Positions 14,497-41,509 of a DNA stretch of 64,000 bases are shown one piece after another. The translations under genes were made by a program, and so were the position numbers. Origin of the DNA: an uncultured Alphaproteobacteria bacterium. GTDB lineage: Bacteria > Pseudomonadota > Alphaproteobacteria > Geminicoccales > Geminicoccaceae. Each line of letters starts with the position of its first letter. Within the stretch, counting starts at the first letter, position 1. The notes under the pieces are model-generated. The model was not told the origin of the DNA, did no database searches, and was given only the letters and a program-made list of their open reading frames with translations. The stretch covers positions 1-64,000 of the forward strand of contig CALKJU010000046.1 of NCBI GenBank assembly GCA_937995535.1. The letters run 5' to 3'.

Positions 14497-15249
14497 CTGC
14501 TCGACTTCGCCAACCTGACCCTGCGCTACGAGCCGTTCCCGATCGGGCTCGCCCGCCCGGTCCTCGATCCGACACTCTACGATGCCCTGACCGCCGCCTA
14601 TCCGCCGCGTGAGCTGTTCCACTACCTGCCCAAGGTCGGCCACAAATACTCGCTGTCGGAGAAGAACAATCCGCGGCACTACGCGGCATGGATCGCGGAC
14701 CACCGTGTCTGGCGCGAGTTCCACCGTTGGATCAAGGGGCGCGGCTTCGTCGAGACGGTCCTCGCGGCACTCAAGGAGCGCGGTGTGGACACAGGATATC
14801 GGGCGCGCGTGCCGGCCGCGCGGCGTCTCGCCAAGCTCGCCCGCAACCTCGCCCGCGGCAACATCGACGCCGGCCAGCCCGGCCTCTCGGCGCGCTTCGA
14901 GTTCTCGATGCTGCCCGCCGACGGCGGCTCGGTCATCCCGCACACCGACTCGCCCGGCAAGGTGATCACGCTGGTGGTGTCGATGATCCGCGACGGCGAA
15001 TGGGATCCCGCCTTCGGTGGCGGCACCGACGTCAACCGGCCGAAGGATCCGCGGCTCTACTACAACGAGCTCAACCGCCAGGCCGAGTTCGACGAGATGG
15101 AGGTGCTCGAGACCTTTCCGTTCGATCCCAACCAGGCGGTCGTGTTCGTCAAGACCTTCAATTCCTGGCACTCGGTGCGCCCGATGACCGGCCGGGGCTC
15201 GCCGGCGATGCGCAAGACGTTGACCATCAACATCGAGGCGGACGGGTAG
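14497..15249 (+). CDS. 2OG-Fe(II) oxygenase-like protein, apparent CTG start
   Basis: About 250 aa. The HTDSPGK (His-x-Asp), NSWHSVRPM (second His) and RKTLTINI (2OG-binding Arg) motifs define a prolyl-4-hydroxylase-like 2OG-Fe(II) oxygenase. Coding-quality sequence extends upstream of the only in-frame GTG (14785): LLDFANLTLRYEPFPIGLA at 14497 onward, then YDALTAAYPPRELFHYL. No ATG, GTG or TTG occurs in frame between the preceding gene and 14785, so the likely start is the CTG at 14497, with GGGAG 7 bp upstream. Starting at 14785 would remove the N-terminal 96 residues. It probably hydroxylates a sugar or aglycone in the adjacent glycan pathway. Confidence 0.75.
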   Translation: MLDFANLTLRYEPFPIGLARPVLDPTLYDALTAAYPPRELFHYLPKVGHKYSLSEKNNPRHYAAWIADHRVWREFHRWIKGRGFVETVLAALKERGVDTGYRARVPAARRLAKLARNLARGNIDAGQPGLSARFEFSMLPADGGSVIPHTDSPGKVITLVVSMIRDGEWDPAFGGGTDVNRPKDPRLYYNELNRQAEFDEMEVLETFPFDPNQAVVFVKTFNSWHSVRPMTGRGSPAMRKTLTINIEADG

Positions 15250-23196: not shown

Positions 23197-23487
23197 ATGC
23201 TCACCCGCAAGATGGCTCTGCTCTCGGTCGCCGGCGCGCTCGCCGGGGCCCTCTCGATGGCCGCGGCCTCCGCTCCGGCCGAGGCCGCCACCGGTACGAA
23301 GTGCTACGGCATCGCCATGGCCGGCAAGAACGACTGCGCCAACGCCGCCGGCACGCATTCCTGCGCCGGCCAGGCCAAGGCCGACTTCGACGGCGGCGAC
23401 TGGCGCGCCGTGGCCGACGAGGCCGCCTGCACCGCCGAGGGCGGCAAGCTCGAGCCGTTCGAGGGCAAGAACCCGGCCAAGGCCTGA
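23197..23487 (+). CDS. bufA1: Bufferin precursor, DUF2282 (BufA1)
   Basis: A 96-aa exported peptide precursor. A long N-terminal signal peptide (about residues 1-29, ending AEA|ATG) is followed by a core with the DUF2282 pattern: KCYGIAMAGKNDCANAAG, THSCAGQAK, and a fourth Cys in DEAACTAEGG. In characterised bufferins the core Cys are converted by the MNIO enzyme to thiooxazole-type heterocycles that bind copper, buffering metal stress in the periplasm. ATG at 23197 has AGGAGAGG 8 bp upstream and starts the signal peptide. First gene of a four-gene operon. Confidence 0.92.
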   Translation: MLTRKMALLSVAGALAGALSMAAASAPAEAATGTKCYGIAMAGKNDCANAAGTHSCAGQAKADFDGGDWRAVADEAACTAEGGKLEPFEGKNPAKA

Positions 23488-23508
23488 GCCGGAAGAGGGA
23501 GCCCGATC

Positions 23509-24393
23509 ATGGCTGCGCCCGCCGCCGTCTCGCCCCGTCCGCCTTGGGAGGTTCGGCTCGCGGCCGGGATCGGGCTCCGCCACCCGCACGTCGCCCAGCT
23601 CATCGAGGAACCGCCCGCCGATCTCGCCTGGGTCGAGGTGCACACCGAGAACTACCTGGTCGACGGCGGGCCGCGGCTGCGTCAGCTTGAGCTGATCGCC
23701 GAGCGCTACGCGCTGTCCTTCCACGGCGTCGGCCTGTCGCTCGGCTCGGCCGACGAGCCCGACCGCGCCCATCTCGCCCGCATCCGCCGCCTGTGCGACC
23801 GCTTCGGCCCCGGTCTCGTCTCCGAGCACATCGCCTGGAGCGTCGAGGGCGGGCACTATCTCAACGACCTGTTCCCGATCCCCTACACCGAGGAGGCCCT
23901 GGCGACGGTCGCGCGCAACATCCGCATCGCGCAGGACGCGCTGGGCCGCCGCATCATGGTCGAGAACCCCAGCTCCTATCTGCGCTTTCTGGACAGCACC
24001 ATGGCCGAGTGCCGGTTCGTCGCCGAACTCGCGGCGCGCGCCGACTGCGATCTGCTGCTCGACGTCAACAACATCCATGTCAGCGCGCACAATCACGGCT
24101 TTGCCGTCGACGACTACCTCGCCGCGATCCCGTCCGAGCGGGTCGGCGAGCTGCATCTCGCCGGGCACGCCCGCGTCCTGGCCGATGGCGCCGTCCTGCT
24201 GATCGACGACCATGCCAGCGCCGTGATCCCCGCGGTCTGGGCGCTCTACGAGCGGACGCTGGCCAGGGTCGGCCCGCGGCCGACCCTGCTCGAGTGGGAC
24301 AACGACATCCCGCCGCTCGAGGTGCTGCTCGCCGAGCGCAGCCAGGCGCAGGCTTGGCTCGACCGCGTCGCCGTCCATGCCCGCGCTGCGTGA
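23509..24393 (+). CDS. bufB: MNIO-family (DUF692) peptide-modifying oxidase, BufB
   Basis: A 294-aa TIM-barrel multinuclear non-heme iron oxidase. Conserved metal-binding blocks include FHGVGLSLGS, EHIAWS, ENPSSYL, DVNNIHVSAHNH, ELHLAGH and DDHAS. It is predicted to modify Cys of the DUF2282 precursor encoded 21 bp upstream, with help from the DUF2063 protein whose gene overlaps its 3' end by 17 bp. Confidence 0.93.
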   Translation: MAAPAAVSPRPPWEVRLAAGIGLRHPHVAQLIEEPPADLAWVEVHTENYLVDGGPRLRQLELIAERYALSFHGVGLSLGSADEPDRAHLARIRRLCDRFGPGLVSEHIAWSVEGGHYLNDLFPIPYTEEALATVARNIRIAQDALGRRIMVENPSSYLRFLDSTMAECRFVAELAARADCDLLLDVNNIHVSAHNHGFAVDDYLAAIPSERVGELHLAGHARVLADGAVLLIDDHASAVIPAVWALYERTLARVGPRPTLLEWDNDIPPLEVLLAERSQAQAWLDRVAVHARAA

Positions 24394-25120
24394 GCTGCAG
24401 GCGCGTTTCGCCCGCGCCGTCCTCGGCGGGCCGCCGTCGGGCCTGCTCGACTCACTGGTCGCGGACCATCTGCCCCCGGCCCGCCGGCTCGCCGTCTACC
24501 GCGCCAACGTCCACATCGCGCTGCTGCGGGTGCTCGAGGGCGGTTTTCCGGCAACGCGCCGCGCTGCCGGAGAGGACCGGTTCCGCGCCGCGGCCATCGC
24601 GTTCCTGCGCGCCTCTCCGCCGGTCGAGCCGCGTCTGCACCTCTGGGGCGGCGCGTTCCCCGCCTGGCTCGCAGCGCACCCCGAAACCGCAGGTCAGCCC
24701 TGGCTCGGCGACCTCGCCGGGCTCGAATGGGCGCGCGAGGAGGTCTACTACGCCGCCGACGCCCCTGCGCTGGTGCCAACGGCGCTCGCCGCGCTGCCGC
24801 AGGAGCGCTATCCCGCCTTACGTCTGCGCCTGCATCCGACCGCGCGGCTGCTCGCCTCGCGCTGGCCGATCGACGCCCTGTGGCGGGGCGAGGTGGCGTC
24901 GCCGCCGCCCACGCCCGCGCACGTTCTCGTGAGCCGCCCGGGCATGGAGGTGCAGACCCTGGTGCTCACGGCGGGCGAGCATGCCCTCCTGGCGGCGCTG
25001 TCCGCGGACGCCACCCTGGCCGATGCCGCCGAGGCGGCGCTCGATGCCGAGCCCGGCCTCGACCTGACGGCGATCCTCGCCCGCCATCTCGCCGCGGGCA
25101 CCTTCACCAGCTTCGGCTGA
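24377..25120 (+). CDS. bufC: DUF2063 partner protein, BufC
   Basis: A 247-aa protein of the DUF2063 family (its N-terminal domain is often labelled as a putative DNA-binding domain). Family features: LRELQARFARAVLG at the start, YRANVHIALLRVLEGGFPATRR, and PWLGDLAGLEWAREEVYYA. In bufferin-type systems this protein binds the precursor and presents it to the MNIO enzyme. The 17-bp overlap with bufB supports a complex. Confidence 0.9.
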   Translation: MPALRELQARFARAVLGGPPSGLLDSLVADHLPPARRLAVYRANVHIALLRVLEGGFPATRRAAGEDRFRAAAIAFLRASPPVEPRLHLWGGAFPAWLAAHPETAGQPWLGDLAGLEWAREEVYYAADAPALVPTALAALPQERYPALRLRLHPTARLLASRWPIDALWRGEVASPPPTPAHVLVSRPGMEVQTLVLTAGEHALLAALSADATLADAAEAALDAEPGLDLTAILARHLAAGTFTSFG

Positions 25121-25143
25121 CCGCGATCTCCAGGAGGGAGACC

Positions 25144-25635
25144 ATGGGAGCGACGTCGCTCGAGGGCAGGGCCGCGATTGCGCCCGCCGGGATCCCCGCC
25201 CGGATCGATCGGCTGATCGGCTGGCTCGAAGGTTGGCCCGCCGGCGTCGTCCTGCTCGCCGCGCGGGTCTGGATGGCCTCGATCTTCTTCAGATCGGGGC
25301 TGCTGAAGATCCAGAACTTCGCCTCGGCGCAGTTCCTCTTCGCCGAGGTCCATCCGGTGCCGTTCCTGTCGCCCGCGCTCGCCGCCGCCCTCGCCACCGG
25401 CTTCGAGCTCGTCTGTCCGGTCCTGCTCGCCCTGGGCCTGCTGACCCGGCTCGCGGCTCTGCCGATGCTGGCGATGGCCCTGGTCATCCAGTTCGTCGTC
25501 GGCGCCGCCGACCCGGCCTTCTGGCAGACCGAGCACTACTACTGGATGCTGCTTCTGGGCATCCTCGTCACCAAGGGTGGCGGCCGCCTTTCGCTCGACG
25601 CGCTGCTCGAGCGCCGGACCGGCATTGCTCCGTAG
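25144..25635 (+). CDS. DoxX-family membrane protein of the bufferin operon
   Basis: A 163-aa protein with four membrane helices and the DoxX pattern (ARVWMASIFFRSGLLKIQNF, then GFELVCPVLLALGLLTR). DoxX genes are regular members of DUF2282/MNIO operons, where the product may assist quinone-linked oxidation or metal stress defence. ATG at 25144 lies 10 bp after GGAGGGAG. It ends 41 bp from the convergent SET gene. Confidence 0.9.
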   Translation: MGATSLEGRAAIAPAGIPARIDRLIGWLEGWPAGVVLLAARVWMASIFFRSGLLKIQNFASAQFLFAEVHPVPFLSPALAAALATGFELVCPVLLALGLLTRLAALPMLAMALVIQFVVGAADPAFWQTEHYYWMLLLGILVTKGGGRLSLDALLERRTGIAP

Positions 25636-25676
25636 CGCCCGGTGGCGCGCCGGCCCGTCCGCGCAACGCTCTGAGC

Positions 25677-26651
25677 CTACTCCGCCGCGACGCGGGCCGC
25701 TGCCCAGGCCGGCTCGGGTTCCAGCTCCGCCAGGACGAAGCTGCCGACGACACCGGCGGCGATGTAGAACTGGCGGCGCTCCGCCGGCAGGGCCGCGAAA
25801 GCGCCGACCAGCCCGCGGCAGTGCCGCGAGCCGCAGCAGCAGCGCATCGCCTCGTGGTCGCCGGCGAGATAGGTCGAGTAGTCGTAGGTGATCTCCTCGC
25901 CCGGCGCGATGTCGCGCAGGGCGATCAGCCGGTAGCCGCCCTGGTCGAGGCGGATGCCGGCGGTCGGCTCGCAGGAGTGGTTGGTGAGATCGTCGATGGC
26001 ACCGCGCGGCAGCAGGTACGCGTCGCGGCCGACCTGGAAGGTGTACCAGTCGAGCTCGTGGCCGTGCGCCGCGAGCTCGGCGCGGGTCACGGTGCGCGAA
26101 CTGTAGGTGGCCGCGTCCTCGTGCACGATGGTCTCGCCGGCGCGGAACGGGCGCGCGGCGAAGATGCCCGCCCCCTTGCCCCCGGCGTCGCTCACGTAGA
26201 GATCCCGGCACAGGGCGAGGTTGCGCATGATCTCGGCGCAGCGCTCGGGCGAGGGCAGGTCGGGCTCGGCGAACGTCGTCGCCGGCGGGCGGAACGGGGC
26301 CGCGGCCTCGGCGAGGCCGAGCAGCGGTGGGGCCGGCTCGATCGGGACCGGGGCCAGCGGCTCGGCGAGCGCCGCGTCCTGGAGGCGCTGCGACGCGGCC
26401 AGTGCCACCACCGAGACCTGGAGGAAGATGTTGACCACGCTGACGATGGTCAGCGGCAACTGCTCGATGCTCAGCGCGTAGAGGAGCTGGACGATGTCGA
26501 CCGCGGCCCAGCCGCCCCACGCGACCAGCGAGGTGGCACGACGCGCCTCGCGGCTGTGCCACAGGAGCCAGAGCTGCGGCAGGTAGAACAGGTCGCCGGC
26601 CACGCCGAGGACGCCGTAAAGAAGGCCGAACACCTCAGGGGACAGGCCCAT
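25677..26651 (-). CDS. SET-domain protein with N-terminal membrane region
   Basis: A 324-aa protein (339 if the ATG at 26696 is used). Residues 1-95 hold about three membrane helices resembling a half PQ-loop/SWEET unit (FYLPQLWLLWHS, then WGGWAAVDIVQLLYAL). A Pro/Ala linker leads to a SET domain at about 160-290 with KGAGIFAARPFRAGE, DDLTNHSCEPTAG and EEITYDYSTY, followed by a post-SET cluster (CCCGSRHC) expected to bind zinc. These motifs form the SAM and lysine channel in protein lysine methyltransferases, and all look intact. A membrane-tethered SET enzyme in a bacterium is uncommon; target unknown. Confidence 0.85.
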   Translation of the reverse strand: MGLSPEVFGLLYGVLGVAGDLFYLPQLWLLWHSREARRATSLVAWGGWAAVDIVQLLYALSIEQLPLTIVSVVNIFLQVSVVALAASQRLQDAALAEPLAPVPIEPAPPLLGLAEAAAPFRPPATTFAEPDLPSPERCAEIMRNLALCRDLYVSDAGGKGAGIFAARPFRAGETIVHEDAATYSSRTVTRAELAAHGHELDWYTFQVGRDAYLLPRGAIDDLTNHSCEPTAGIRLDQGGYRLIALRDIAPGEEITYDYSTYLAGDHEAMRCCCGSRHCRGLVGAFAALPAERRQFYIAAGVVGSFVLAELEPEPAWAAARVAAE

Positions 26652-26850
26652 GCCGCAGAAGCCCCCGCTTCCGGCCGTGCAGGCGCCGTCGCGCATCGCA
26701 CCGGCGCGTCGGCCCTTCCGACCCGTACCGTTCGTCGCGGGACCGCGCGCTGATTGTGCTGGTCCTCGATCTTCTTAGCGCACAGGTTGAGTGGGCGGAA
26801 GAACCTTTGCGGGTCGGCGGCCGTGCTGGCCCGATCCGCTCGACGGAAGG

Positions 26851-27285
26851 TCACGCGGCGGCGGCGGGTGGGATGGCGTAGCTGCCGACGCCGTGCGCGA
26901 CCGGTCGAAGCGGATCCTCCGCGGGGACTACGACGACCTCGCCCACCGCCAGGGTCCGCCCGAGGCGCAGGATGCGACCCTTGGCGAGCAGATCGCCGGG
27001 CCGCGGCTTGCTCAGGAAATGAAAGCTCATGTCAGTGGTCACCGCCAGCTCGACCCGGCCGACCAGCGAGAGCACGACACCGTAGAGCGTGACGTCGGCG
27101 AGGCCCATCATCGCCGGTCCGCAGATCGTCCCGCCCGGCCGCACCAGCATGTCCTGCCAGGGCAGGCGCATCTCCACCTCCCCGGCGGTGAATCTCTCGA
27201 CCTTGAGACCGAGCAGGCCGACATAGGGCACGCCCTGGCTCGCCAGCTCCTCGAACTCGGCGGCGGTCAGCTTGAGACGCGGCAT
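26851..27285 (-). CDS. PaaI-type hotdog thioesterase
   Basis: A 144-aa hotdog-fold protein with the PaaI_thioesterase pattern: GGTICGPAMMGLADVTLYG for the core helix and VTTDMSFHFLSKPRPGDL for the following strands. It probably hydrolyses acyl-CoA esters. It is divergent from the crotonase-fold gene, with 32 bp between the starts, so the two may share a control region. The 199 bp between this gene and the SET gene contain nothing recognisable. Confidence 0.88.
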   Translation of the reverse strand: MPRLKLTAAEFEELASQGVPYVGLLGLKVERFTAGEVEMRLPWQDMLVRPGGTICGPAMMGLADVTLYGVVLSLVGRVELAVTTDMSFHFLSKPRPGDLLAKGRILRLGRTLAVGEVVVVPAEDPLRPVAHGVGSYAIPPAAAA

Positions 27286-27317
27286 CGCTGGCGGCCTCCG
27301 GTCCTTGCCTCGCGGGG

Positions 27318-28160
27318 ATGGTGCTGGATATAGGTCGGGTCATGAGTGCTGGGCCAGCCACGGCGCGGGCGGCGCCGGTCAGCGAAGAGCCGCAGCTGCT
27401 GCGCGAGGCGCGCGGCGGCGTGGTGCGGCTGACGCTCAACCGCCCCGCCGCCTTCAACGCCCTGTCGCGCGAGCTCCTGACCGCGCTGCTGGACGAGATC
27501 GAGCGGATCGGCGCCGATCGCGCCGCGCGCGTGGTCGTGCTGGCCGGCCGCGGCCGCGCTTTCTGCGCCGGCCACGATCTCAAGGAGATGGGCTGCGATC
27601 TCGGCCAGGCGGCGCTCGAGGAGCTGTTCGGCCTGTGCGGCCGGTTCATGCTCGGCCTGACCCGGTTGCCGCAGCCGGTGATCGCCCGGGTCGACGGCAT
27701 CGCCACCGCCGCCGGCTGCCAGCTCGTCGCCGCGTGCGACCTCGCGGTCTGCAGCGAGACCAGCCGCTTCGCCACCTCGGGCGTCAAGTACGGCCTGTTC
27801 TGCAGCACGCCGATGGTCCCGCTGTCGCGCAACGTGCCGCGCAAGGCGGCCATGGAGATGCTGCTGACCGGCGACTTCATCGACGCCGCCGAAGCGCACC
27901 GGCTGGGGCTGGTCAACCGTGTCGTCCCGGCGGCCGAGCTCGACGCCGCCGTGGACGCGCTGGCCGATCGCCTTCTCGACAAGCCGCGCGAGGTTCTGGC
28001 GCTCGGCAAGCGGGCCTTCTACGCGCAGCTCGAGCAGTCCTTGGAGGAGGCCTACGCGACCGGGACGCGGGCGATCGTCGCCAATGCGCTGGGCGCGGAC
28101 TTCGCCGCCGGGCTCGATGCGTTCGTGCACAAGCGCAAGCCGGTGTGGCCCGGCGACTGA
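27318..28160 (+). CDS. Enoyl-CoA hydratase/isomerase-family protein
   Basis: A 280-aa crotonase-fold protein. The CoA/oxyanion elements are present (GRGRAFCAGHDLKEM; IATAAGCQLVAACDLAVCS). The two Glu used by enoyl-CoA hydratases are absent: GGCE is GCQ here, and the second Glu region reads GVKYGLFCSTPMVPLSR. This pattern matches the ECHDC2/ECHDC3-like subgroup, whose reactions are poorly defined. ATG at 27318 or 27342 could be the start. It lies 34 bp before the glucan gene. Confidence 0.88.
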   Translation: MVLDIGRVMSAGPATARAAPVSEEPQLLREARGGVVRLTLNRPAAFNALSRELLTALLDEIERIGADRAARVVVLAGRGRAFCAGHDLKEMGCDLGQAALEELFGLCGRFMLGLTRLPQPVIARVDGIATAAGCQLVAACDLAVCSETSRFATSGVKYGLFCSTPMVPLSRNVPRKAAMEMLLTGDFIDAAEAHRLGLVNRVVPAAELDAAVDALADRLLDKPREVLALGKRAFYAQLEQSLEEAYATGTRAIVANALGADFAAGLDAFVHKRKPVWPGD

Positions 28161-38570: not shown

Positions 38571-39083
38571 ATGCGTGTGTCGAGGCGTGGTGTGTTGGCC
38601 GGGCTGATGCTGCTCGGCCTCGTGGCGGGACCGGCGATGGCGGGTGCCCTGCCCGTGCCGAAGGGCAAGGTGATCCTGCGCATCGAGGGCAACATCGCGC
38701 AGCGCAACGCACCGGACGCGGCCGAGTTCGACGCCGAGATGCTCGAGTCGCTGGGGCTCGTCGAGCTGGTCACGCGCACGCCCTGGACCGAGGGTGAGGT
38801 GCGGTTCTCGGGCGTCTCGCCGAAGGCCCTCCTGGCTGCGGTCGGCGCCGCCGGGAGTACGGTCGACGCGGTCGCGCTCAACGACTACCGGGTCGAGATC
38901 CCGATGCGCGACATCGATACGCTGGGGCCGCTCCTGGCGACCCGGATCGACGGCCGGCCGATGCGGGTCCGTGACAAGGGCCCGCTCTGGTTGGTCTATC
39001 CCTGGAGCCAGCGTCCCGAGCTCGACACCATCGAGTATCAGAGCCGGTCGATCTGGCAGATCAAGACCCTGGTCGTGCGCTGA
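38571..39083 (+). CDS. Small exported molybdopterin-binding-fold protein
   Basis: A 170-aa protein with an N-terminal signal (RRGVLAGLMLLGLVAG ... AMA|GA). The core resembles a shortened oxidoreductase molybdopterin-binding (SUOX-like) fold: VTRTPWTEGEVRFSGVSPKALL, ALNDYRVEIPMRDI and KGPLWLVYPWS. The conserved Cys that ligates molybdenum in true enzymes is absent (no Cys in the protein), so it may be a sensory rather than catalytic version. Such genes often precede a GGDEF or GGDEF-EAL sensor, as here, 41 bp downstream. Confidence 0.78.
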   Translation: MRVSRRGVLAGLMLLGLVAGPAMAGALPVPKGKVILRIEGNIAQRNAPDAAEFDAEMLESLGLVELVTRTPWTEGEVRFSGVSPKALLAAVGAAGSTVDAVALNDYRVEIPMRDIDTLGPLLATRIDGRPMRVRDKGPLWLVYPWSQRPELDTIEYQSRSIWQIKTLVVR

Positions 39084-39124
39084 GCACAGGCCGGCGCAGC
39101 GCCGAGCCCCGGCGGCTCCACCCG

Positions 39125-41509
39125 ATGCGCGGCCATCGCGTCGCCGCCGGCACGCGCCTCGCGCTCGCCATCGCGGTGGTCATGTTCATGACCGCGATGC
39201 TGGTCAGCCTGGTCCGCCTCGAGGCCCAGCGCGAGGCCGATTCGCGGGTCGACCGGCTGGGCATCTGGTCGACCGCGCAGGCCCAGACGCAGCTCGCCCG
39301 GTTCCAGGTCGCCGTCGAGCGCTACGTGACCGGCGCCGCGGAGGTCGGCGCCGACGAGCTGGTCGATGCGTTCGAGCTGCTGTGGAGCCGCATCCCGCTG
39401 CTCGCGACCAAGAACCGGCCGGGCCTCGACGTCACGCCGGGGCTCGAGATCGCCTCGGTGATCGAGCGGCTCGACGCGGTCCTGGCGGAGGCCGAGCCGG
39501 ACGTGCTGCGGCTCGCCCGCGGTGGCCGCGAGGAGGTCTACCACCGGGTCACCCAGGCGATGCAGGCGGTCGATCGGCTGCTCGCCGATCTCAACCAGAA
39601 GATCCATGACGAGCGGCTCGCCGCCGAGCTCGAGAAGCAGATCCGCGTGGCCGCGCTCTACCGCGGCCTGCTGGTCTCGCTGCTGGCCCTGCTGATCAGC
39701 GGCGGGACCCTGATCGCCCTGCTCGACCGGGAGACGCGCCGCGCGCGGCGGCTCGCGGTGGTCGCGGACGAGGCGCACGCCGCCGCCGCGGCCGTGAGCC
39801 GCGATCTGCAGGCGGTGATCGACGCGGTGCCGGCGGCGATCACCGCGACCGACCGGCAGGGCCGCTACCTGTTCATGAACCGCTTCCAGGCCGACCTCCT
39901 GGGTGTGGCGCCGGAGCAGGCCGTAGGCCGCCTGCCGAGCGAGCTGGGCCTCGACCCGGCCGTCGACGCGGAGCTGCGCGCGGTCGCCGAGAGCGGCCGG
40001 GCGATGCCGTTCGTCGAGCAGGTCGAGCAGGACAGCAGCGGGCGCCGGCGGACGCTGCTGACCAGCAAGGTCCCGGTGCGCGACGCCACCGGCGAGGTCG
40101 TGCGCGTGGTCCACGTCGCGCTCGACATCACCGAGCGCAAGCTCGCCGAGGAGCAGGCCCGCCATCTCGCCCACCACGACGCCCTGACCGGGCTGCCGAA
40201 CCGGGCGTTCCTCACCGAGGCGCTGCATCGCGCGCTCGCCCGCGCCATCCGCAGCGGCCAGGGCATCGCCCTGCACCTCATCGATCTCGACCGCTTCAAG
40301 GAGATCAACGACACGCTCGGGCACCCGGCGGGCGACGCGATGCTCGTCGAGGTCGCGGCGCGGATGGCCTGCTGCATCCGCGAGGGCGACACGCTGGCGC
40401 GGATGGGTGGCGACGAGTTCGCGATCCTCCAGGAGGGCCTGCTCGACCCCGGCGAGGCGGCGTCGATGACGCAGCGCCTGCTGGCCGCGCTGGCCGCGCC
40501 GATCCGCCTCGCCGGGCAGGAGATCACGAGCGGCGCGAGCATCGGCGTGGCGCTCGGGCCGGCCGACGGGAACGAGGTCGCCGAGCTGATCCGCCACGCC
40601 GACCTCGCCCTCTATCGGGCGAAGAGCGACGGCCGCAACCTCGCCCGGTTCTACGAGCCGGCGATGAACCTGCAGCTGCGCGACCGGCTGGAGCTCGAGC
40701 AGGCGCTGCGCGCGGCGCTCGCCGCCGAGGCCTTCGAGCTGCACTACCAGCCCAAGTACCGTCTCGCCGACGACCGGCTCGTCGGGGTGGAGGCGCTGAT
40801 CCGCTGGCGTCACCCGGAGCGCGGGCTGGTGCCGCCGGACCGGTTCATCGCGCTCGCCGAGGACACCGGGCTGATCGTGCCGCTCGGCAACTGGGTGCTG
40901 CGCGAGGCCTGCCGGCAGGCGCGCCGCCTGCGCGATCTCGGCCTGCATGCGGGGCGCATCGCCGTCAACCTGTCGCCCGAGCAGCTGCGCCGCCAGGACG
41001 TCGTGGCGGCGGTCGAGGACGCGCTCGCCGCGGCCGATGTCGACGCCAGCCTGATCGAGCTGGAGTTGACCGAGAGCCTGCTCGTCCGCGACGCCGAGCA
41101 CGCGCTGCGGGTGATGCGCGATCTCAAGGCGCTCGGGGTGAGCCTCGCGCTCGACGATTTCGGCACCGGCTACTCGGCGCTCGCCTATCTGCAGCGCTTC
41201 CCGTTCGATACGCTCAAGATCGACCGCGGCTTCGTCTGCACGCTCGACGAGCCCGGTGGCTCGTCGCTGCGGATCATCGAGGCGGTGGTCCGGCTCGCGC
41301 ACGGCCTCGGCCTCGCGGTCGTGGCCGAGGGCGTCGAGACGGCGCAGCAGCGCGACACCCTGCAGGCGATCGGCTGCGACCAGGTGCAGGGGTACCTCTA
41401 CTCGCGGCCGGTCGAGGCGCCGCGGCTCGTGGAGCTGCTCCGCGGGCCGCCGGCGCCACCGCGCGGCCCGCTCCGCCGCACGGCGGCCCTGGCCGAGGCG
41501 GTCGCCTGA
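39125..41509 (+). CDS. Membrane GGDEF-EAL c-di-GMP enzyme with PAS domain
   Basis: A 794-aa protein. Two membrane helices (about residues 11-29 and 179-200) flank a periplasmic helical sensor; then a PAS domain (about 220-340), GGDEF domain (428-432 GGDEF intact, with a RxxD inhibitory site, REGD, upstream) and EAL domain (EAL at 556-558, plus LDDFGTGYS and EGVET). All residues for both synthesis and hydrolysis of c-di-GMP appear present. The signal may come from the molybdopterin-fold protein encoded just upstream; that is inference. Confidence 0.94.
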   Translation: MRGHRVAAGTRLALAIAVVMFMTAMLVSLVRLEAQREADSRVDRLGIWSTAQAQTQLARFQVAVERYVTGAAEVGADELVDAFELLWSRIPLLATKNRPGLDVTPGLEIASVIERLDAVLAEAEPDVLRLARGGREEVYHRVTQAMQAVDRLLADLNQKIHDERLAAELEKQIRVAALYRGLLVSLLALLISGGTLIALLDRETRRARRLAVVADEAHAAAAAVSRDLQAVIDAVPAAITATDRQGRYLFMNRFQADLLGVAPEQAVGRLPSELGLDPAVDAELRAVAESGRAMPFVEQVEQDSSGRRRTLLTSKVPVRDATGEVVRVVHVALDITERKLAEEQARHLAHHDALTGLPNRAFLTEALHRALARAIRSGQGIALHLIDLDRFKEINDTLGHPAGDAMLVEVAARMACCIREGDTLARMGGDEFAILQEGLLDPGEAASMTQRLLAALAAPIRLAGQEITSGASIGVALGPADGNEVAELIRHADLALYRAKSDGRNLARFYEPAMNLQLRDRLELEQALRAALAAEAFELHYQPKYRLADDRLVGVEALIRWRHPERGLVPPDRFIALAEDTGLIVPLGNWVLREACRQARRLRDLGLHAGRIAVNLSPEQLRRQDVVAAVEDALAAADVDASLIELELTESLLVRDAEHALRVMRDLKALGVSLALDDFGTGYSALAYLQRFPFDTLKIDRGFVCTLDEPGGSSLRIIEAVVRLAHGLGLAVVAEGVETAQQRDTLQAIGCDQVQGYLYSRPVEAPRLVELLRGPPAPPRGPLRRTAALAEAVA

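Follow-up and report, generated by a model that had tools for sequence, protein, structure and literature searches.

Is a SET-domain methyltransferase built into the membrane of a bacterium and, if so, on what would it act? A single gene raises this question in the 64,000-nucleotide contig stretch that we analysed (the window), which comes from an uncultured Geminicoccaceae bacterium. Bacterial SET proteins have, in our impression, been studied mainly as pathogen effectors. In the accessible part of a review devoted to them (PMC3980110), the word "transmembrane" does not occur and "membrane" occurs once, about archaeal nuclei. Our literature searches, which covered mostly papers outside subscription, found nothing on a SET domain with a PQ-loop membrane protein, nothing linking SET, diguanylate cyclase and lysine methyltransferase, and no inner-membrane SET protein in a Sphingomonas context. 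In the partial texts available in the same searches, SET domain and PQ-loop were mentioned together only in plum-genome work, with one mention each; SemiSWEET with a methyltransferase domain brought up, among the matches listed, only SARS-CoV-2 work; and among the GGDEF/EAL/CHASE4 papers listed none mentioned "SET domain." Lysine methylation in bacterial signal transduction would have a concrete place to be sought in a SET enzyme that recurs with membrane domains and, in many cases, near CHASE4/c-di-GMP genes.

The gene lies on the minus strand, from 26,651 down to 25,677, and its 324 codons plus stop contain no internal stop. Its sequence shows a SemiSWEET-type membrane domain fused in frame to a SET domain, the catalytic motifs of which are intact. 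The sequence-only reading had described a PQ-loop-like N terminus joined to a SET domain with NHSC, YDY, and CCCGSRHC, and domain profiles, motifs, and codon bias confirmed this description and placed it on the minus strand. Third-position GC is 0.89 to 1.0 in all 12 blocks of 27 codons, including the disordered, Pro/Ala-rich linker (26,229–26,363, minus strand), which keeps full coding bias and which the AlphaFold2 model leaves in part (residues 101–130) below a pLDDT of 50. Because the codon bias is unbroken through the linker, the fusion looks real. A frame is also open on the plus strand across 25,677–26,651, but both domains sit on the minus strand; a chance long ORF in 72% GC DNA is ruled out by the two domain homologies together with the codon bias.

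Two in-frame ATGs, at 26,651 and at 26,696 (the latter would add 15 residues), lie upstream of the membrane part, and either may be the start. Another ATG on the minus strand, at codon 142 (26,226–26,228), falls about where the soluble relatives described below begin, so that a second, soluble product is possible. By eye, no candidate start has a strong ribosome-binding site, and no promoter- or terminator-like pattern was found in 25,550–27,350. One could argue from the codon-142 ATG and the lack of a strong ribosome-binding site that the mature protein is simply soluble, either because translation begins at codon 142 or because an assembly error lies in the linker. We consider this very improbable, as the coding bias runs continuously across the membrane part and linker and the membrane part has homologues. 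Translation starting after the membrane region had been named as what would reduce the gene to a normal soluble SET enzyme. A gene for nothing but a soluble SET protein does not agree with the data, because the membrane part is under coding bias and has homologues in a known membrane family; internal initiation at codon 142 may still contribute.

The SET domain itself (residues 160–258; 25,878–26,174, minus strand) matched Pfam SET with an E-value of 1.6e-15 and 57.9 bits against a curated cut-off of 22.4. It carries NHSC at residues 224–227 (25,971–25,982) and the catalytic-Tyr motif YDY at residues 256–258 (25,878–25,886; Tyr258, within ITYDYS), and it is followed by the post-SET CxCx4C motif, CCCGSRHC, at residues 271–278 (25,818–25,841) and by C-terminal helices in the AlphaFold2 model at residues 290–324 (25,680–25,784), all on the minus strand. 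Across an alignment of 47 rows, N224, H225, C227, D257, Y258, C271, C273, and C278 do not vary, and AlphaFold2 run on that alignment modeled the domain with block pLDDT means of 68 to 97, exceeding 90 in six of the ten blocks of residues 161–260.

Among solved structures, the best sequence and fold matches were the lysine methyltransferases ASH1L (Z 13.4) and MLL1 (Z 13.2), which share with the window protein the SET fold, NHSC, the Tyr, and the post-SET CxCx4C; unlike them, the window protein is bacterial, membrane-anchored, and without histone context. The methionine S-methyltransferase BurB (PDB 9l4t/9l4v) shares the SET fold with a near-tied Z of 12.3, in an alignment reaching residue 290, and matched by sequence at E 3.4e-9. 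BurB and the lysine methyltransferases are nearly tied against the window SET in both sequence and fold, with histone-type lysine methyltransferases scoring equal to or above BurB. To our knowledge BurB has no membrane domain, and we saw no sign that the window protein shares its substrate, methionine. According to the accessible part of the BurB report, a SET enzyme can act on methionine (PMC12542666), and this precedent, with the sequence and fold matches, raises the possibility that the window SET methylates a metabolite that its transporter-like membrane partner imports or exports. The partners do have a transporter-like cast (SemiSWEET-type in the window, an MFS_1 match next to one relative's SET, and a weak PQ-loop resemblance in the seven-helix fusions described below). 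Even so, we think this reading unlikely, given that histone-type enzymes score as high or higher, that the sugar-site residues of the membrane domain are replaced, and that the relatives' neighbors are signaling genes.

The membrane part is a SemiSWEET-type/PQ-loop triple-helix domain (residues 1–96; 26,364–26,651, minus strand), akin to the halves of sugar transporters. AlphaFold2 predicted three long helices, at residues 5–32, 34–59, and 67–96, with block means of 57 to 86, and the PQ motif, Pro25-Gln26 (26,574–26,579, minus strand), is invariant in a 14-row alignment. Pfam PQ-loop and MtN3 gave no match to the window protein, and NCBIfam SemiSWEET_3 matched residues 14–82 weakly (E 7e-4; 19.8 bits, far below its 100-bit cut-off). 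With a profile of 13 relatives built without the window, the window protein scored 64.8 bits, and the highest-scoring of 2000 hydropathy-preserving decoys reached 19.4; this score is partly selected, as the window had served as query in finding those relatives. Six canonical SemiSWEETs alone, used as a profile, gave 29.9 bits against 16.8 for the best decoy. In the other direction, a profile including the window found solved SemiSWEETs at E-values down to 6e-20. The N terminus modeled alone from its single sequence reached a pLDDT of 69, and a fold search of the PDB with that model gave no significant match. In three helices, PQ motif, and profile match to solved structures, the domain resembles SemiSWEET/PQ-loop proteins; it differs in being fused to an enzyme and in two residues. 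Trp48 and Asn64 are what we take to be the sugar site of LbSemiSWEET, and at the aligned positions the window protein carries Gln55 and Ser71. We did not class the domain as a sugar transporter for this reason, and sugar transport as its main role is weakened.

Loop charges bear on which way the protein faces. The loop between helices 1 and 2 has three Arg and one Glu, that between helices 2 and 3 has no positive residue and one Glu, and one Arg and two acidic residues are found in the stretch past helix 3. Because the positive residues fall in the first loop (three versus none in the second), the predicted topology is, on balance, N-out/C-in, with the SET domain cytosolic. The earlier proposal of an inner-membrane SET protein is consequently still the best reading, now with a cytosol-facing enzyme suggested by three predicted helices and their loop charges.

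The same fusion of three helices and SET was found in no second genome among the 31 family, 385 class, and 398 phylum genomes searched, where up to five candidates were scored per genome at class and phylum level and larger groups were sampled. None of the class and phylum matches to the window N terminus had a SET domain in the same frame. The search of other genomes that the sequence-only reading had proposed thus left the particular fusion alone in the window and turned up membrane–SET fusions built separately. At the level of genome contigs, 80 of 234 relatives were kept. The closest SET domains were those of G003, G020, and G025, from the window's family, and G375, from another family (42–54% identity), and G375 grouped with the window and the other three with full tree support (100/100). 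SET domains of the window type were present at E≤1e-8 in 4 of the 31 family genomes (the window's, G003, G020, and G025), and some further family genomes carry weaker, different SETs. Unlike the window protein, the four close relatives lack a membrane domain; no membrane helices appeared in G003, G020, and G025 at a TM threshold of 1.7, a setting so strict that it reports a single helix for the window protein and could miss weak helices in these "soluble" proteins.

These soluble SET loci differ from the window in a second way, since a separate frame comes after the SET. In all four, a conserved frame of 908 to 1083 residues lies directly 3′ of the SET on the same strand (L125, 4820–7933; L126, 1249–4497; L127, 1147–4332; L128, 8420–11,143), some copies of which match MFS-like, HEAT, and cNMP-binding domains. 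Pfam recognized parts of three of the four: MFS and HEAT over the cut-off in G003 (MFS_1 just over it), with cNMP-binding below; HEAT and cNMP-binding in G375; and cNMP-binding just below the cut-off in G020. The G025 copy had no Pfam match. The G003 protein was aligned nearly over its full length by the G020 (39%) and G025 (37%) copies. Across the 31 family genomes, the large protein occurred at E≤1e-10 in three, exactly those with a soluble SET at E≤1e-8 (G003, G020, and G025), and it was not found in the window's genome. By kinship, we infer that the membrane part built into the window enzyme stands in for the separate protein used by its relatives.

We also weighed the plainer account in which an ordinary SET enzyme acquired a membrane domain in a recent fusion and has no special membrane role. 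A soluble sister clade, and a three-helix fusion confined to one of the genomes searched, speak for that account. The large frame directly 3′ of the soluble SETs, with its MFS match in G003, speaks against it, as does another family in which a membrane domain joined to SET has been kept across five genera, and we regard it as improbable.

That other family is f13, in which full-span matches to a seven-helix fusion (7TM-SET) were found in 8 of 199 family genomes and in 23 of 396 genomes of the order, which makes 28 distinct genomes belonging to five genera. Like the window protein, these fusions (mostly 378–426 residues) carry an intact SET preceded by a membrane domain; unlike it, they have seven helices, their SETs belong to other clades, and most lie near a CHASE4 gene. 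NHxC, xDY, and CxCx4C are kept in all 33 proteins compared (the window, four soluble relatives, and 28 7TM-SETs), with NHHC in place of NHSC in the 7TM-SETs of G933 and G803, and the residue preceding DY is Tyr in the window's clade and Trp, Phe, Leu, or Ile in 7TM-SETs. Loop charges in three charted frames, including a 7TM domain that stands alone, are as for a 3+1+3 arrangement, N-out and C-in, clearly in two and less so in the third. Pfam put no name to this membrane domain in any of four 7TM-SET proteins tried, one of which had a DUF998 match below the cut-off. The second repeat of the 7TM domain resembles the window N terminus (hhalign probability 74.8%; E 2.6e-5), a resemblance that is no more than suggestive.

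A single origin of all membrane–SET fusions was set aside, as the tree places the window with the soluble SETs; holding the window SET with either 7TM clade was weakly rejected (p-AU 0.041 and 0.029), for groups named after the tree had been seen. The 7TM domain also turned up apart from an intact fusion. G790 has a frame like the membrane domain of 7TM-SET, without a SET, at 2616–3305 of L208 on a 3.3-kb contig. In G1144 (L267, 5763–7199), a 7TM-domain fragment and a HATPase frame lie downstream of a full 7TM-SET gene and beside a complete-looking CHASE4-kinase gene, and they are perhaps a decayed duplicate.

The relatives' neighborhoods pointed to signaling. Of 27 7TM-SET loci that were resolved, 22 had a CHASE4 sensor gene, mostly with GGDEF-EAL, within 8 kb of the SET; so had all three resolved soluble loci, and none of 83 control SET loci had one. 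Flanks were resolved in 11 genomes, and by the gaps between domain matches CHASE4 was less than 3 kb from the SET in 10 of them (G003, G020, G375, G615, G627, G834, G897, G885, G933, and G803) and 7.4 kb away in G609. In the 12 genomes with both a CHASE4 match and such a SET, there were one to four CHASE4 matches per genome, and the chance of one falling within 5 kb is 0.2 to 1% per genome, for a pattern that was noticed first and then measured. Two genomes were dropped from the linkage counts: G025, whose SET is at the end of a 4.3-kb contig and whose 82%-complete assembly has no CHASE4 match anywhere, and G814, whose 7TM-SET is at a contig start and whose four CHASE4 matches are all on other contigs. 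Of 19 further 7TM-SET loci from one genus, 14 had a CHASE4-kinase homologue within 8-kb flanks and 5 had none there (L252, L258, L260, L265, and L269). The linked loci span three SET clades; many share one genus, and those of one clade do not count as independent cases.

As a control, the 83 SET loci (850 kb) gave CHASE4 or EAL in none, GGDEF in three, and a weak HATPase match in one (L035). These controls were drawn for the most part from other phyla, which may differ in CHASE4 content, have flanks of up to 6 kb for L001–L080, and leave out short class and f13 soluble SET loci (L085–L124, L194–L201); the profiles used to scan them were built from loci with CHASE4.

The 7TM-SET neighbors are either a CHASE4-HAMP-HATPase frame with a REC-GGDEF-EAL frame or a CHASE4-GGDEF-EAL protein, as identified by Pfam for L180 and L205 and by similarity for the others. 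Because the CHASE4 genes are convergent with the SET in L180, L182, L202, and L203 and divergent in L204–L206, we describe this as a neighborhood and not as one operon. At the soluble loci of G003 and G020, the gene 5′ of the SET, in line with it, encodes CHASE4-GGDEF-EAL, and in G375 CHASE4 and HATPase frames come after the large frame. A separate arrangement was seen in G979 (family f238; L244, 495–2477), where an EAL-domain frame, running to the locus end, comes after a SET-only frame of 178 residues on the same strand.

The window locus has no CHASE4 neighbor. Its genome has three CHASE4 matches, two over the cut-off, only on contigs C5, C58, and C15, and the signaling link of the window gene is accordingly by kinship only. 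The match on C5 belongs to a CHASE4-GGDEF-EAL protein (L270, 5037–7292) like those beside the relatives' SETs, here unlinked to the SET. When the relatives' flanks were compared with window positions 15,000–40,000, the matches listed fell on two frames, the SET frame and an overlapping one on the opposite strand. The one GGDEF/EAL frame found in a scan of the window encodes a PAS-GGDEF-EAL protein (38,975–41,506, plus strand), 12 kb from the SET.

Taken with these neighborhoods, we favor a cytosol-facing, membrane-anchored SET methyltransferase acting in signaling, an account we consider about evenly poised between right and wrong. Three SemiSWEET/PQ-loop helices would hold the protein in the inner membrane with its N terminus outside, and the SET domain would sit in the cytosol, where SAM is available. 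The intact catalytic and zinc-binding motifs suggest that it is an active methyltransferase. The membrane domain may dimerize, as SemiSWEETs do, and would serve as anchor or sensor rather than as a sugar channel, since both sugar-site residues are replaced. The SET enzymes of this group would work with transporter- or receptor-like membrane partners and CHASE4/c-di-GMP circuits, as seen in the relatives and not at the window locus, and methylation of a signaling protein would tune the pathway. Because the relatives' SETs keep such company, the substrate is probably a lysine on a membrane or membrane-proximal signaling protein; for the lipid-linked substrate that had also been suggested, nothing in the analysis points to one. 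A broader and distinctly more tentative proposal, which we hold to be less probable than not, is that of a membrane signaling class in which a SWEET/PQ-loop-type receptor would have SET as its output or tuning module. Such proteins would have been built more than once, by fusion or operon pairing, and would operate alongside CHASE4 sensors and enzymes of c-di-GMP turnover, in a manner akin to the tuning of chemoreceptors by CheR methylation.

The genes immediately around the fusion are of other kinds. A 4HBT thioesterase gene lies on the same strand (26,851–27,285), and on the other side a DoxX gene is convergent. An operon at 23,197–25,635 on the plus strand, which we take to be of the Bufferin type, encodes a small, secreted-looking, cysteine-bearing precursor (23,197–23,487; 96 residues), an MNIO enzyme (PF05114, E 8e-104), a DUF2063 partner, and DoxX.
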